From a virus: DNA of 38,082 nucleotides. The notes under the pieces were generated by a model. The model had not been told where the DNA came from. It searched no databases and saw nothing but the letters and a program-made list of their open reading frames with translations. The DNA lies in IMG/VR virus record IMGVR_UViG_3300032020_000028, positions 1 through 38,082 of that record; one strand, written 5' to 3'. The translations under genes were made by a program, and so were the position numbers. Position 1 is the stretch's first letter; each line of letters starts with the position of its first letter. This document shows, one piece after another, positions 13,350-34,635 of this stretch.

Positions 13350-13367
13350 AAAACTCCTAATAATAAA

Positions 13368-13404
13368 TAAAAAAAGCAGGCAACTATAAAGTCACCTGCT
13401 TTTA
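13368..13404 (-). terminator. Rho-independent terminator just before tape measure gene
   Basis: On the minus strand AGCAGGTGACT and AGTTGCCTGCT form an 11-bp stem (two G-U pairs) around a TTAT loop. It is extended by three A-T pairs and followed by seven T residues. It closes the small-gene cassette at 13469-13881. The + strand reading also has a weak T run (TTTTA), so some bidirectional action is possible. Confidence 0.85.
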
Positions 13405-13468
13405 AAATTCTGTTTAAAGCTTGGGTATTACATAATAAAACTTTTTTTACCTAAAACATTTTAAACAC

Positions 13469-27945: not shown

Positions 27946-28741
27946 TTAAGAAGCACATGGACAAGGAATTCTACCAGTGAAGGTACCCTTAGCAACTGAA
28001 TTTGCATTAACTATAAGCATTCCAATTTCCTCATAACCAACATATGCGATGAGTGCTCTTTTTGGCTCATCGTCCGGCATTAAAATCAAATCAGTACGAA
28101 TAGGTAATACTCCAGTAAATCTCGGTTCAGAGAAACAATATACTGTACTTGCAGGAACTAATCGAGAAACGATAATATCAATTCCCCAAATAGAACCCAT
28201 CAAGCCAGTTTGCATAATTTCTCTTTGAGTTACTGGATCCACGTCATCCCTTTGCCACGATCTAATATGAGAATAAGACTTCATGTTCATTAAAAATGCA
28301 TACGCAGGTAAATCGTGATCCTGAACAGTAGCCGCCAATTCATTTAGAAAATCTTTGTTAAGACCAGTCGTACTGGTAACAATTGGATTGTTAGCAGTAT
28401 TTGCTAAAACAGTAGCTAACGCTAAAGCCAAAAACTGAGTATCTTCCTCTAACTGAACATGAATCCTAATCTTCTCTTGCATACGATCTAAAACATTGAA
28501 CCTACGCTGTTGGATTTCAGATAACCTAATTCCCTCAGGAGCGAAAATCTCCCAAGTCTTAGGCTCAACATAATCTCCCTCAACGATAAAATCAATAATT
28601 TCACCACGCTTTGCAACAGTAGTTGCAAAACCTGCGATGTCACGATCGTAACGCGCAATTTGTCCTTGTGCTAATACATCGATCTCAAAAAACCTTCTGG
28701 CCATGCCTTGGTAATCTAAAGTTTCCCTGATTGGTATCGCC
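27946..28741 (-). CDS. Major capsid protein, exon 2 (C-terminal part)
   Basis: After splicing this exon encodes residues 65 (last base) to 329 of the capsid protein. It continues AIPIRETLDYQGMARRFFEI, a segment typical of HK97-fold capsid proteins. It then has the long helix and beta hinge regions, and a C-terminal IVSRLVPASTVYCFSEP... part that ends CPCAS. The segment upstream of the first in-frame ATG (28704) continues the same open frame only to the intron boundary, so the ATG is internal. With exon 1 the protein is 329 residues, a normal capsid length. This is inferred from sequence pattern and gene order after protease and decoration genes. The stop is followed by a strong stem-loop. Confidence 0.88.
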
Positions 28742-29592
28742 CTAACTTGTTACTACGTAATAGATTACGTAGGGCTGATCATTTCTGTCAACCTCTATAT
28801 GTTTCCATATAGCTCGGACTATATCTTCAATCTTTCGATTGTTCCACGTATAGTCTCTGAGGATTCCTAATCTTATATTGCATACAAGGAGGTGTATAGG
28901 TTAATAAATAATCTTCTAACCTTTCTCGAGTTCTTCTCGCAAAATAAAGTTTCCACCATTTCTGATTTTTAATTATTGATGTATAAAGACCTAATTTTTT
29001 AAACAAATGCTCTCTTATTAGTTTTTGTTCCTCAAGAGTAAAAGCACAGGTAGACAAAAAATATTGCTCAGATTTTTTATTAAAATATCCATCATCACAA
29101 AACCATAATACAAACCCAGCAATCGTAAGCATATCTAATATTTCTTTAGTCACAATTTTTTGTCCATTTTTATACATCAATTCCCATAAATAAAATAAAT
29201 CCGAATGAGATACAGAATTAAGGTGGAAATATTCATTCCCTGTTGCACGATCTCTCCAAACCATTATTTCTTTATCCAAAAAAATCGAATGTAATATTTG
29301 AACTTTATGTTGTAAATACTGTCTTGATTTCTGCCCCAATTTCAAATAACAATAATTACCAGAACGAATTTTTTGCAAACACCCATCTCCTAAAGCAGTA
29401 CCTACAACCGCCCCCATAATATCTGGAGATAATCGTTGTTGTCTTATTTCTAAAATTCTTTTTCGTTGTTCTTTAATAAACATTTTAGGTTTCCTGCTGA
29501 TTGCCCCTATCTTACAAATTATTACTCTTTGGTATTGTAAGCTTAACAGGGTGTTCCAGCATATAGTAGAATTACCAGACAGCGATTATACT
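28742..29592 (-). ncRNA. Group I self-splicing intron in the capsid gene
   Basis: The 851-nt intron has all key group I elements on the minus strand. P1: exon end CCAGAU pairs with intron GUCUGG, with a U-G pair at the splice site. P10: exon 2 start GGCGAU pairs with intron AUCGCU. P4: UGCUG pairs with CAGCA. The R element (CAGAGACUAUACGUGG at 28859-28844) and S element (AAGAUAUAGUCC, 28827-28816) form P7. The last intron base is G (28742). Splicing joins AT and G as a Met codon and restores a 329-residue frame. The loop between Q and R elements holds an endonuclease gene. Confidence 0.93.
28827..29483 (-). CDS. LAGLIDADG homing endonuclease inside the capsid intron
   Basis: The 218-residue protein has two LAGLIDADG-type motifs, VVGTALGDG (residues 26-34) and GFVLWFCDDG (123-132). 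Each has the acidic residue that helps bind catalytic metal, so it is a single-chain enzyme. Such proteins cut intronless capsid alleles near the insertion site and promote intron spread. Some also act as maturases. The gene starts at ATG 29483 inside the intron, 8 nt after an AGGA that is part of the Q element. It runs into the R element, and its stop overlaps the S element. The open frame is intact, so the endonuclease is probably functional. Confidence 0.93.
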   Translation of the reverse strand: MFIKEQRKRILEIRQQRLSPDIMGAVVGTALGDGCLQKIRSGNYCYLKLGQKSRQYLQHKVQILHSIFLDKEIMVWRDRATGNEYFHLNSVSHSDLFYLWELMYKNGQKIVTKEILDMLTIAGFVLWFCDDGYFNKKSEQYFLSTCAFTLEEQKLIREHLFKKLGLYTSIIKNQKWWKLYFARRTRERLEDYLLTYTPPCMQYKIRNPQRLYVEQSKD

Positions 29593-30378: not shown

Positions 30379-33300
30379 TTACCTATTATGGTAATGCACT
30401 GGGGGTGGATAGTTAAGCCCCTTTCTCCTAAGAACATTTCCTGGAGTTGTAAATCTACTTGTAAAGTCTGGAACTTTTGTTCCTTCTAAATCAGTAGTAT
30501 GTCGATTTAACTGAGGCACAACATTTGCTTGTTTTCTAATTCTCGCTTTCATATCAGCGTTAACCTCAGGTCCAAATTCCTCTAATTCTTCAAGCTCTGG
30601 TTCTATCTCAAGCTCATCAACATGAACTTCATCAAACCTAGATCTGTCTTTTACCGGAGGTATAGTTGGATCAAAATCGGCTTTCTTTTTTGATAATTTT
30701 GCATTATCTACAACATCCTTGTTCATATTATCAACCTTTAACAAATCTGGATGTTTTCCCTCAATCCTCTCTTTTCTAACAGAATCTGTTGCATCATATA
30801 CAACCCCACTATTGACATTTTCTGCTTCAGGAATTTGATATGCATGTAAAGCTTTAGAGTTTACAACTGGAAGAGAATCTAAAGTTTTTTCAACAGCTTC
30901 AAAAGCATTTTCATCAAGTAATGCATAATCCTTTGCTTGCTCCGTAATAGCATCTGCTTCAAATGGAATTGCACCAACTGCAGCTGCTTTTCGAGCTAAA
31001 TCAACCGCCCTCTTCGCAAGAGCATCAGCAACCTTCTCAGTTTCCAATGCTTGCACTTTTCTCTTTAAATCTTTATTCTGCTTAACAAGTTGTGCAGCAT
31101 ATCCAGGATCACCAAAAGCCTCAGAATAATAAGATTTTTCATTGACACCTGCTTTTACATCAGTAGGTTCTACTCCTTTCCGAGGATCTCCCGACTTTTT
31201 ATCTTTCTCGTGAGTATCATATTCACCTTTCGGAACCTCCTTAATTGGCTTGCCTACAAATTCAGCTGCTTTCTTTGTCATAACTTTCACCCAACTACCA
31301 TACATCTCTCTTCGAGTATTATCAAGCCCGATTGTAGATACCGCTTTAAGAATTTGCAACTTGTAGGAATTGGAACAGAATTTCTTAAAGTTTTCATCAG
31401 TTTGATTATCTTTTCCTGCAACGTCCACAAAAGCCGATTTAACTGCAAAATCATTACCTGTTCTTGTAATTAACCAATAAGAACTTCCTCTTTTCTCTTG
31501 ACTAACAAACAACTTTGCAACAATTCCAGTCAACAAATCTACTCTTCCCTCAGGAGTATCAAATTCAGTTCTTTCCTCTTTACCTTTCATTTTTTCATAT
31601 TCCTGATTAAATCCCTTCCAAGTAGATAATTCTTTTTCAACTGGAGGCTCTCCATAATCTCCTGGATCTTTAGCTCCAGTCGGTGGATAGGAAGTAGCTT
31701 CCTTCTTTTCTCCAAAAATTGTAACCAACTGATCATGAGCTCTTTTAATACTCTCAACATTGGAAACAACTTCTTCTAATTTTTTAGTCACATTTTCACC
31801 TCCTTCTGTAGGTGTTTCTTTAGGTTTTTCTTCGAATTTTTCTTTAGGTTTCTCAGGACCTCCTTTTAAATCCATGATGGTATCTTTAATAATTTCCTGA
31901 GCATCTCCAATAGCTTCTTGAGCATCTTCAATAATAGGCTTTACTTCTTTTAAGGTCTCTTCAACAGCAATTTTTAAATTCCTGCTATATCTACGAGCAC
32001 CTTTAAGAACCTCATTAAGAGGTTTTCCAATTTTTTCCTCAAGTTTTTCTTCAGCCACTTCAAGGTCTTTATTAACCACTTTTAAATCCTCAATAGTATT
32101 TTTTAAGACCTCTTGCACTTTCTCTGGAGCTTTTGGTTTTTCCTCAAGTTTCTTCTCCACCCTTTCCTCAGGCTTTAGCTCGGGTCTTTCCTCAGGTTTC
32201 TTTTCCACCTTTTCCCCAGGTTTTTCCTCTTCTTCTTTCTTCTCTCCAGGCTTTACTTCAGGCTTTATCCCAGGCTCTCCTTTTTCCTCCTTTTTCTTTT
32301 CCATATATTCTTTCAAACCAGGAGGAAGTTCACCAGCTAATACTTCAATAGTAGCTTTTACTTGTTTTCGTAACTCCCTTACCGCCTGTAAAGTATCTCT
32401 CACAACTTTAGATGCGGATACTGAATCTTCAAGAAAGATAACTCCATGCGGTTGAGATTTTTTCTCTTTATCAATCATATCCTCTCCTTTTTCTGACATT
32501 TCTTCCCAAGCTTTAAGCTCGGTTTTTTCTATTTTAATTCCTTCATCTTTTATATCTTCAGCCGTAGATGGAAGACCGTCATATACTGCTTTTTTCGAAG
32601 ATTCTTTAGTTTCCATATTTCTTTTTATAACTTCAACAATACTTTCTTCATCATAACCTGTCATATCTTCACCAAAAACTTCAATTTCTCCTTCAGCTTC
32701 AACTCTTATTTCTCCACCTTGGTGTGTTAAATCCAATATTACAGTTTGAGGAGCTTTTCCTATTGTAGTTCCGCCAACAATTGAATGTCCTGCCGTATCT
32801 GCAGCTTTTCCAACTATTGTAACAGATTCCTCTTGTTCGTCTGTAGAAGTTAATCGAGTCCAACGAGAAGCTTTTTTCACAAACAATCCAACTAATACAG
32901 ATTCTTTTTGACCCCCCGGAACTTTACTCCATGCAGTTCTAGCGGCATATTCCTTTGCTTCATCAGCAGATGCTCCTTCCCCGACTTTATAATTGTAAGC
33001 TCCTGCATAAGCACCTATAAACTTCTCTTGAGCATCATTCGAAAGTTGATCAATCTTTTTCATAAAATCGGAATCTTGCCGCACATCTGTTTCAGTAATT
33101 GCAGCAAATTTTTGAATCATCTCTTTACCTCCTCTATCTTTTATTATTTTTTGTTCAAATTCATCATATTTTCGTGGAACAACTTTATATTTAATTTGTA
33201 ACATTTTTATATAATCACTAATGTCACGTAATTTTTTTTCATCTCTCCCTGCCATTTCATACATGGCATCAACTAATTCTTGAGGTTGTTTTCCTTGCTG

Positions 33301-34635
33301 AGATATAAGAATATTAAAATCGTGAACATCCGTTAAATCTAATCCAGTATTTTTATATTCCATAGCGCCAAATTTCACAAAGTCTTCTTTTTCAGCAAAA
33401 GTCAAATTTAATAAAACCTCCGGATTCTCCATTTGAACAAAAGAAGGATTACTCATAGATATAAATTTAGCACCAATTTTTTCAAATTTTGATCTATTTT
33501 CAGTTTCCACATATACTTTTTTTATTTGATTAGTTCTTAAAGCTTCTTTAGCAATATCTCCATTCCTTAAATAAGCAACCTTTTCTAAATCTGCCCATTT
33601 ATCAAAATCCTTATTAATTTCTTTTGCCATTTTTGTAGTAGAAGAACTAAAATATTCATTAGTTACATCTACATGAACTTCAACTTCCTCATCTCCAACT
33701 TTTACAAGAGGTAATAATTCTTGAAATCCTTTTTTAAGTAATGATGCAATTTTTTCTAACTTATAACCTCTGATATAAGCTGGATTTGCAACAACGCTTA
33801 ATTCAAAAAACGAAAGTCCATAATTAATTTCAAATACTGAAGCAGTTATCATCCTACTTGTTTTTCCTTCTAAAACTTCTCTTTGATCTGCCTCTCGCTT
33901 AAGAACCCATTTTAACCACTCTGGGTGAAGCTTTCCTTCTTTTAATAAATTTCGAATTTGGTTCGCAGGAACTAAAACTGTAGATCCTTTTGAGAATGCA
34001 ACATGGTTGCAGTACTCGTGCTCGAACCTCGCCCTATTACCACACACGCTGCAGTCGGAGTACTCGATATTGGTTCCCATACTACAACCCACTTCAGTGT
34101 CGGTGTCCACCATGCGCGCGATAGAAGGAGATAATTTAGCGTCAACAGCCATCAGCACTTCGATACTACCATCTTCTTCTGGTTTTCTGTTGTTAAGAAT
34201 ATCTATTCTTTCTTCCGAGGTCAATTCGCTCCATTCTCGTCCATATTTGCTAGTATCAAATCTATTTAAATAAGCTCCAAGCAAAGTTCCAATACTTTTT
34301 TCAATATTGTCGCTTTGATGTTCTACAAAAGCATGTTTGTTTATAAAGGAAGTATAACCATATCCTGAGCGAGTATCAGTAAATTCAGAATAAGGAAATC
34401 CATCAAAATTACAATTTGGGCCGTCCACACACAAATTACCTATGGCACGGAAGCGGCAATAACGAAAGTCTGAATTGTAAGGAGAAATCTTTTGCATATC
34501 CGAAGCATATTTATGAATAACTTCAGGAAAAACTGAACCCATACTACAATTCTGGCAGTTTTTGTGATTGCAGTTAACACACATTCCAAGCTTTCCAGGA
34601 GAAGAAAAATATTTTGTTAAGATAACTTTTTTCAT
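30379..34635 (-). CDS. Prohead protease fused to ChaB-like and scaffold regions
   Basis: The 1418-residue protein begins with a Cys4 cluster (C19, C22, C27, C30). A prohead protease-like domain (about 85-300) follows, with HAFVEHQSDN (H101/H106), VDAKLSPSIARMV and GCSMG (Ser185). It also has a second zinc-like site (C195, C198, C209, H211). This layout resembles capsid maturation proteases of large phages, which cut scaffold and capsid before packaging. Residues about 531-575 contain a ChaB-like segment (AYNYKVGEGASADEA...AARTAW). The region about 775-945 is Glu/Lys/Pro-rich and highly charged. The C-terminal region has coiled-coil character, like a scaffold. Two in-frame ribosome binding sites at residues 506 and 949 suggest shorter products. 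Catalytic residues are assigned by pattern only. Confidence 0.75.
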   Translation of the reverse strand: MKKVILTKYFSSPGKLGMCVNCNHKNCQNCSMGSVFPEVIHKYASDMQKISPYNSDFRYCRFRAIGNLCVDGPNCNFDGFPYSEFTDTRSGYGYTSFINKHAFVEHQSDNIEKSIGTLLGAYLNRFDTSKYGREWSELTSEERIDILNNRKPEEDGSIEVLMAVDAKLSPSIARMVDTDTEVGCSMGTNIEYSDCSVCGNRARFEHEYCNHVAFSKGSTVLVPANQIRNLLKEGKLHPEWLKWVLKREADQREVLEGKTSRMITASVFEINYGLSFFELSVVANPAYIRGYKLEKIASLLKKGFQELLPLVKVGDEEVEVHVDVTNEYFSSSTTKMAKEINKDFDKWADLEKVAYLRNGDIAKEALRTNQIKKVYVETENRSKFEKIGAKFISMSNPSFVQMENPEVLLNLTFAEKEDFVKFGAMEYKNTGLDLTDVHDFNILISQQGKQPQELVDAMYEMAGRDEKKLRDISDYIKMLQIKYKVVPRKYDEFEQKIIKDRGGKEMIQKFAAITETDVRQDSDFMKKIDQLSNDAQEKFIGAYAGAYNYKVGEGASADEAKEYAARTAWSKVPGGQKESVLVGLFVKKASRWTRLTSTDEQEESVTIVGKAADTAGHSIVGGTTIGKAPQTVILDLTHQGGEIRVEAEGEIEVFGEDMTGYDEESIVEVIKRNMETKESSKKAVYDGLPSTAEDIKDEGIKIEKTELKAWEEMSEKGEDMIDKEKKSQPHGVIFLEDSVSASKVVRDTLQAVRELRKQVKATIEVLAGELPPGLKEYMEKKKEEKGEPGIKPEVKPGEKKEEEEKPGEKVEKKPEERPELKPEERVEKKLEEKPKAPEKVQEVLKNTIEDLKVVNKDLEVAEEKLEEKIGKPLNEVLKGARRYSRNLKIAVEETLKEVKPIIEDAQEAIGDAQEIIKDTIMDLKGGPEKPKEKFEEKPKETPTEGGENVTKKLEEVVSNVESIKRAHDQLVTIFGEKKEATSYPPTGAKDPGDYGEPPVEKELSTWKGFNQEYEKMKGKEERTEFDTPEGRVDLLTGIVAKLFVSQEKRGSSYWLITRTGNDFAVKSAFVDVAGKDNQTDENFKKFCSNSYKLQILKAVSTIGLDNTRREMYGSWVKVMTKKAAEFVGKPIKEVPKGEYDTHEKDKKSGDPRKGVEPTDVKAGVNEKSYYSEAFGDPGYAAQLVKQNKDLKRKVQALETEKVADALAKRAVDLARKAAAVGAIPFEADAITEQAKDYALLDENAFEAVEKTLDSLPVVNSKALHAYQIPEAENVNSGVVYDATDSVRKERIEGKHPDLLKVDNMNKDVVDNAKLSKKKADFDPTIPPVKDRSRFDEVHVDELEIEPELEELEEFGPEVNADMKARIRKQANVVPQLNRHTTDLEGTKVPDFTSRFTTPGNVLRRKGLNYPPPVHYHNR
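31789..31803 (-). promoter_or_regulatory. Internal ribosome binding site 2 (GTG, residue 949)
   Basis: GGAGG (31803-31799) lies 7 nt before an in-frame GTG (31791) within the protease/scaffold gene. A product of 470 residues would start MTKKLEEVVSNVESIKRAHD. GG and GE codons produce part of this motif, so chance is possible. Confidence 0.5.
33118..33132 (-). promoter_or_regulatory. Internal ribosome binding site 1 (ATG, residue 506)
   Basis: GGAGG (33132-33128) lies 7 nt before an in-frame ATG (33120), the spacing used by other genes in this window. A product of 913 residues, starting MIQKFAAITETDV, would contain the ChaB-like and scaffold regions without the protease. Confidence 0.6.

Follow-up and report, generated by a model that had tools for sequence, protein, structure and literature searches.

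The window analysed here is an IMG/VR virus record of 38,082 bases, in which a tail sheath gene, baseplate-like genes and head genes surround a capsid locus. This locus contains three open reading frames (ORFs) arranged in series on the minus strand, which encode 66 (29786-29586), 218 (29483-28827) and 252 (28704-27946) amino acids. The first and the third belong to the two predicted exons of a major capsid gene, and the second is a LAGLIDADG homing endonuclease gene lying within a predicted group I intron of 851 nt (28742-29592, minus strand). Exon 1 (29786-29593, minus strand, 194 nt) comprises codons 1-64 and the AT of codon 65, and exon 2 (28741-27946, minus strand, 796 nt) extends from the G of codon 65 to the stop codon. 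A 1418-aa ORF (30379-34635) is located upstream of the capsid gene, and its match to a head maturation protease (phrog_18299) is confined to the N-terminal residues 71-218. Elsewhere in the window, the region 13362-13449 resembled the L20 leader of Rfam at a score below the threshold (29 bits against 58.7, E 0.07), probably by chance.

The 252 aa encoded by the ORF within exon 2 were assigned to the major head protein family phrog_2522 (3.9e-42). The spliced protein matched phrog_2522 better and further to the left than exon 2 alone (1.1e-52), its residues 48-317 being aligned to positions 47-315 of 318, that is, over nearly the full length. In a separate capsid profile built for this analysis, exon 2 covers the positions 30-286, and exon 1 showed a weak match to positions 2-29. 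The best named relative of the spliced protein was the major head protein gp27 of Bacillus phage G, with 39.6% identity over 81% of the query. The gene of this head protein sits in phage G behind a gene noted as "capsid decoration". Judged by these similarities, the host gene is the major capsid gene of a large phage distantly related to Bacillus phage G.

The original prediction had fixed the splice sites to the base, and the join that it proposed was confirmed. The removal of 29592-28742 brings 194 and 796 nt together into a 990-nt frame encoding 329 amino acids, with an ATG (codon 65) arising across the capsid junction. Without splicing, the capsid frame ends after 66 amino acids, at a stop codon located two codons into the insert. 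The predicted spliced junction reads ...GCCCAGAT joined to GGCGATACC. Exon 1 is in frame with exon 2, and the tblastn comparison with the intronless IMG/VR relatives L001 and L002 (86%), L003 (87%) and L004 (67%) was continuous across the join. This comparison with intronless homologues was able to refute the join, and all four relatives matched it base-exactly, each of them reading GAQ-M-AIPIR unbroken. Since exon 1 ends with T and the intron with G, while the intron starts with A and exon 2 with G, sliding the junction by one base either way loses the sequence of the homologues. The join is therefore fixed by the comparison alone and is independent of the helices P1 and P10, which agree with it.

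Both of these helices were found as proposed. For P1, the exon sequence CCAGAU (29598-29593) pairs with the internal guide sequence GUCUGG (29575-29580, minus strand) at all six positions, with U.G at the cut, and for P10, the sequence GGCGAU of exon 2 (28741-28736) pairs with the intron strand AUCGCU (29581-29586, minus strand), also at six of the six positions. U precedes the 5' cut and G is the last base of the intron. When 200,000 junctions were drawn at random on the minus strand of the window, with the first 40 nt of the intron kept fixed, a complete P1 was obtained in 1.9% of the draws, and a complete P1 together with a complete P10 in 0.057%.

The sequences flanking the site were also compared. 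Over 10 codons on each side of it, L001 and L003 share 90-97% DNA identity and the window shares 67-73% with each of them, while overall every pair of these three sequences is near 78-79%. This pattern, seen in three sequences and over 60 nt, would fit either homing-linked co-conversion or gene conversion among empty alleles.

A covariance-model search of the whole window supported the assignment of the insert to group I, giving an Rfam Intron_gpI match of 38.3 bits (E 1.9e-6), which lies below the gathering score of 50. At the gathering threshold Rfam gave no match in the whole window; the group I match came from the more permissive search, in which group I was the only intron class found. 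In a coarser first look, the search of the record itself with RF00028 yielded nothing at E <= 10. The match covers the 3' half of the core (28952-28795), and the 5' half was matched weakly (29561-29452, 18 bits, E 0.07 in a search of 1.15 kb). A score under the gathering cut-off would be expected here, since approximately 650 nt of ORF splits the core and, with it, the model.

The core parts, all on the minus strand, follow one another in the order P3-P4-P5-P6-P7-P8-P9, with P6a read by eye and the pairing of P7 being uninformative. The strand UUCUAC (29566-29571) pairs with GUGGAA (28842-28847) as P3, UGCUGG (29556-29561) with UCAGCA (29500-29495) as P4, which is nearly invariant across introns, and CCC (29549-29551) with GGG (29506-29504) as P5. 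The 5' side of P6/P6a, GGA and CCUAA (29485-29494), faces UUAGG (28870-28866) and UCC (28863-28861), as read from the sequence; the closing bases GG and CC are present in 17 of the 17 introns listed. The R and S elements pair as P7, as had been predicted, with GACUAU (28855-28850) opposite AUAGUC (28822-28817), and this guanosine-binding helix is placed by the Rfam alignment. P8 (CAAUC-GAAA-GAUUG, 28828-28841) and P9 (CUAUAUG-GAAA-CAUAUAG, 28795-28812) are based on the pairing in the intron set described below. Two further 3' hairpins, GGUUGA/UCAGCC and UACGUAA/UUACGUA (28754-28793), were read from the sequence and resemble P9.1 and P9.2.

The two halves of the core are 631 nt apart in the window. 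As the whole endonuclease gene lies between the strands of P3, this helix ties both halves into one ribozyme. We examined it in introns of the same core type. For this, the six bases before UAUAUGC were compared with the six bases after the R element, P3 being excluded from the motifs used to find the two halves. Thirty-one introns were tried, and 12, some of which run off the contig, were dropped where the P4' motif and the R/S motif could not both be located; two of the 19 introns kept were exact duplicates in the part compared, leaving 17 distinct ones. P3 was fully paired in all 19 introns, in many different sequences, and shuffled partners gave a mean of 3.96 pairs of 6 and a maximum of 4.79. 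Expressed as paired cells, P3 (shuffled mean 0.68) and P4 each reached 102/102 in the 17 distinct introns. The values were 49/51 for P5 (shuffle mean 42.4, maximum 47), 64/84 for P8 (shuffled mean 0.52) and 108/119 for P9 (shuffled mean 0.57), as well as 92/102 for P7 (shuffle mean 0.89), which is too conserved to covary. It should be noted that the register of P5, with GGG directly before CAAUC, was picked after the alignment was seen; the other register, with 42/64 cells paired, was wrong and was replaced by it. In these alignments P3, P5, P8 and P9 covary.

The same core was then sought in viral contigs. The pattern scan found GAAGATATAGTCCGA in at least 120 stretches and CTATATGCTGGAACANCC in 29, and AGAGACTA was present within 80 nt upstream at 97 of the 124 GAAGATATAGTCCGA sites examined. 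Counted by these motifs, the core type is common in phages. Stretches of 43-71 nt with 78-93% identity to the 3' part of the intron occur in Staphylococcus, Yersinia, Roseobacter and Prevotella (Lak) phages, and in one Staphylococcus phage the core match falls between the pieces of a gene annotated as a recombinase. The window intron shares with the phage group I introns of this type, including those of Staphylococcus phages and of IMG/VR loci, the 5' core CUAUAUGCUGGAACA, the 3' core GAAGAUAUAGUCCGA and the order P3-P4-P5-P7-P8-P9. Unlike it, these introns are sometimes without an ORF.

The original prediction did not include the endonuclease gene (29483-28827, minus strand). Its 218-aa product was recognised by Pfam PF03161 (LAGLIDADG_2; 1.2e-25, 90.8 bits against a cut-off of 25) and by phrog_11023 (1.7e-15). 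The predicted structure of the enzyme had a pLDDT of 88.9 and a pTM of 0.86, and the solved folds closest to it were those of I-WcaI (TM 0.79) and of the yeast mitochondrial enzyme I-SceI (TM 0.78), both of which were also matched by sequence. The model thus assigns the product an I-SceI-like, double-motif LAGLIDADG pseudo-dimer fold. The double-motif fold is shared with I-SceI and I-WcaI (PDB 1r7m and 6x1j) over 206-209 alignment columns at TM 0.78-0.79, but the identity is 22%, and the two solved enzymes, also intron-encoded, differ in origin and in DNA target. The acidic motif residues D33 and D130, D131 align with those of I-WcaI and are invariant in all five aligned sequences, the window's included.

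The 5' strand of P6a is followed immediately by the start codon of the endonuclease gene, which therefore takes up the P6 loop, and AGGA located 8 nt before the AUG is a possible ribosome site. At its other end, the frame crosses P6, P7 and P3 and enters P8 (28870-28827), and its stop is the UGA of GAUUGAAGAUAUAGUC, a conserved stretch in the P8 3' strand/J8-7. The last ten residues, which are encoded in this overlap with the core, are the sole part of the model below pLDDT 50, as would be expected if the RNA dictates the sequence there. The enzymes of the capsid introns L171, L173 and L226, presented below, likewise read into the ribozyme core.

In single-sequence searches for close relatives of the endonuclease, 8 stretches of viral contigs and 17 stretches of genome contigs were obtained, none of which was confirmed; seven distant phage records were matched. 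The search with an endonuclease alignment gave nine loci, two of which, L241 and L242, are on the contigs of L173 and L171, respectively, and the scan of the other seven for core motifs and capsid similarity gave no clear result. In the Bacteroides phage PhiCrAssBcn18 (L011, 932-3165), a LAGLIDADG-like ORF with distant similarity to the window enzyme (27%) separates the two annotated pieces of the replicative helicase.

To the capsid-alignment scan, at least 590 relatives responded, of which the best 80 were kept. Six loci were examined closely. Split capsid genes were present in four of the best 80 of at least 590 relatives, namely L170, L171, L173 and L226, and the others of the 80 were open over the profile region tested; L172 is cut by the contig end. 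Seventeen loci, namely the window, L001-L004 and L162-L173 (L161 is the contig of L004), form the clade that shares 57% identity or more with the window. In four of the 17 (the window, L170, L171 and L173), an intron interrupts the gene at codons 63-65. That of the window is inserted after the AT of codon 65, and those of the other three lie exactly 5 nt upstream of it, between codons 63 and 64.

The introns at codons 63/64 of L170 (2669-2926; 62.9 bits) and L173 (first intron, 1101-1371; 77.8 bits) have no endonuclease ORF and score above the Rfam gathering score. The intron of L171 at the same codons (1477-2500; 44.2 bits), the second intron of L173 at about codon 96 (1468-2536; 24.5 bits) and the intron of L226 at about codon 88 (1455-2500; 32.8 bits) each encode a PF03161 enzyme and score below it. 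L226 is nearer to phage G. In each of these five cases, U is the last base of the exon and G the last base of the intron, the frame is restored, and P1 has 5-6 of 6 pairs and P10 4-6 of 6. The ribozyme of the window is 68-70% identical to those of the three neighbouring-site introns, 71% to that of one other phage intron and 61-64% to those of the other two capsid introns. Given these identities at the neighbouring site and elsewhere, a common origin of the window intron and its three neighbours at this place is possible.

A distant type of capsid gene was reached via the intron scans and not via the capsid scan. In L152 (2441-6707), a major capsid gene lies in five exons separated by four insertions; the exons are matched piecewise by the capsid of L051 with 79-89% identity, and their limits follow from this similarity and are not base-exact. 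Endonuclease ORFs are present in three of the four insertions, two of the LAGLIDADG type (phrog_11023) and one of phrog_5046. L150 and L156 represent the same phage as L152 (99.8-99.9%). The related capsid gene of L051 (6197-8428) has one intron with an endonuclease ORF of 309 aa, and its splice site is seemingly a few codons away from the first one of L152.

The comparison of the enzymes bears on the question of whether the window intron is still mobile. The window enzyme is 37-38% identical to that of L171, 40% to that of the second L173 intron and 26-27% to that of L226. These three enzymes carry 44-57 N-terminal residues before the LAGLIDADG domain, which the window enzyme does not have. 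This shortening, along with an insertion point 5 nt away from that of the three nearest capsid introns on other contigs, would be consistent with a degenerating, non-homing element, that is, an intron that splices while its endonuclease is inactive or blind to this site. Against such a decay, the double-motif LAGLIDADG domain is full, its acidic residues are kept, the fold is predicted with confidence and the ORF has neither a stop nor a frameshift. I-SceI, a solved relative, is also similar in size, with 235 residues in the chain 1r7m. We regard a degenerating element as unlikely.

It is far less probable that the capsid gene is broken, in which case an endonuclease gene would have been inserted, the ribozyme would be dead, and the phage would be defective or the pieces would act as separate proteins. 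In favour of this explanation, the sequence comes from a metagenomic contig, and an in-frame ATG is present within exon 2 at 28704. However, both exons are open and conserved, the join is exact, and the core pairs are intact at every tested helix. Moreover, the search of the 38-kb window with the capsid profile built here revealed neither a second capsid locus nor a further capsid piece, and an insertion without splicing would not bring along P1 and P10 fitted to both exons. LAGLIDADG enzymes occur in inteins too, but an intein or a group II intron in place of group I has a negligible chance, both being ruled out by the early stop in the insert, the absence of an intein domain in the Pfam scan and the Rfam search, which found only group I.

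Very probably, a mobile self-splicing group I intron with a homing endonuclease interrupts the major capsid gene of this phage. This reading builds on the boundaries, the frame restoration, the empty sites in relatives, the covarying core and the family and predicted fold of the endonuclease obtained here; splicing in the cell, the cleavage specificity and homing we infer from the established biology of group I introns and homing. The ribozyme would fold in the transcript (P3-P9), and the guide sequence would form P1 with the 5' splice site, placing U.G at the cut. This site would be attacked by a guanosine held in P7, and the freed exon, aligned by P10, would attack after the last G of the intron, giving an uninterrupted capsid mRNA. 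Unspliced RNA would be the source of the LAGLIDADG endonuclease. The enzyme, in turn, would cut the empty site in the intronless capsid genes of co-infecting relatives, and repair would copy the intron in.

The intron endonuclease of the jumbo phage PhiPA3 reportedly differs from the window's in enzyme family and in host gene. Its action in competition between co-infecting phages is reported from experiments (PMC11620839), whereas for the window enzyme we infer such a role. The closest parallel in kind is the mycobacteriophage LittleE, in which an 819-bp probable group I intron with a LAGLIDADG-type (I-CreI-related) endonuclease lies in the major capsid gene, and splicing was demonstrated by RT-PCR and N-terminal sequencing (PMC3706429). 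LittleE and the window have in common the capsid host gene, the LAGLIDADG gene, the U before the intron and the G at its end. In LittleE, the endonuclease gene reads against its host gene and the enzyme is compared to I-CreI, whereas the gene in the window has the orientation of the capsid gene, lies in the P6 loop and encodes an enzyme with an I-SceI-like predicted fold; the phage types are unrelated. The same source cites a capsid intron in the lactococcal phage Tuc2009.

A LAGLIDADG enzyme of phrog_11023, the PHROG of the window enzyme, is described in a phage DNA polymerase intron (PMC11878797), and the terL, nrdD and polymerase genes of huge gut phages are described as repeatedly split by group I introns (PMC12363816). 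In mirusviruses, HK97-type capsid and other morphogenesis genes have been repeatedly invaded by introns with endonucleases; these capsid introns are spliceosomal and belong to viruses of eukaryotes, whereas the window's is a group I intron of a phage (PMC12768974). Among literature titles and abstract openings, a scope with subscription journals mostly outside it, we found none on capsid introns of phage-G-like phages and none on multiple group I introns within one phage capsid gene. The kind of element, a group I capsid intron with a LAGLIDADG gene, is already known; what merits further attention is the surrounding cluster of capsid introns.

We tentatively suggest, as an idea with a modest chance of being right, that mobile group I introns favour the capsid gene of phage-G-like large phages and settle in it repeatedly. 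Introns of one ribozyme type occupy two sites at codons 63-65, separated by 5 nt, and two of these introns carry related LAGLIDADG enzymes. Introns are also inserted elsewhere in the capsid gene, and a distant one has four. Since one enzyme target of about 20 bp would span the two neighbouring sites, it is conceivable that the intron acquired a new guide and splice site with the target of its enzyme unchanged. If true, this would be a testable route by which homing introns reach new sites.

At the level of annotation, a gene caller would give a truncated capsid protein and a nuclease here, and the actual sequence of the capsid protein is obtained once the intron is recognised. Within this clade, the capsid genes provide natural pairs of occupied and empty sites, as well as two sites 5 nt apart, for testing LAGLIDADG specificity and how group I introns are retargeted. 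The efficiency of splicing in phages could, moreover, be measured well in a gene such as this one, which is essential and highly expressed and would rely on ribozyme splicing.
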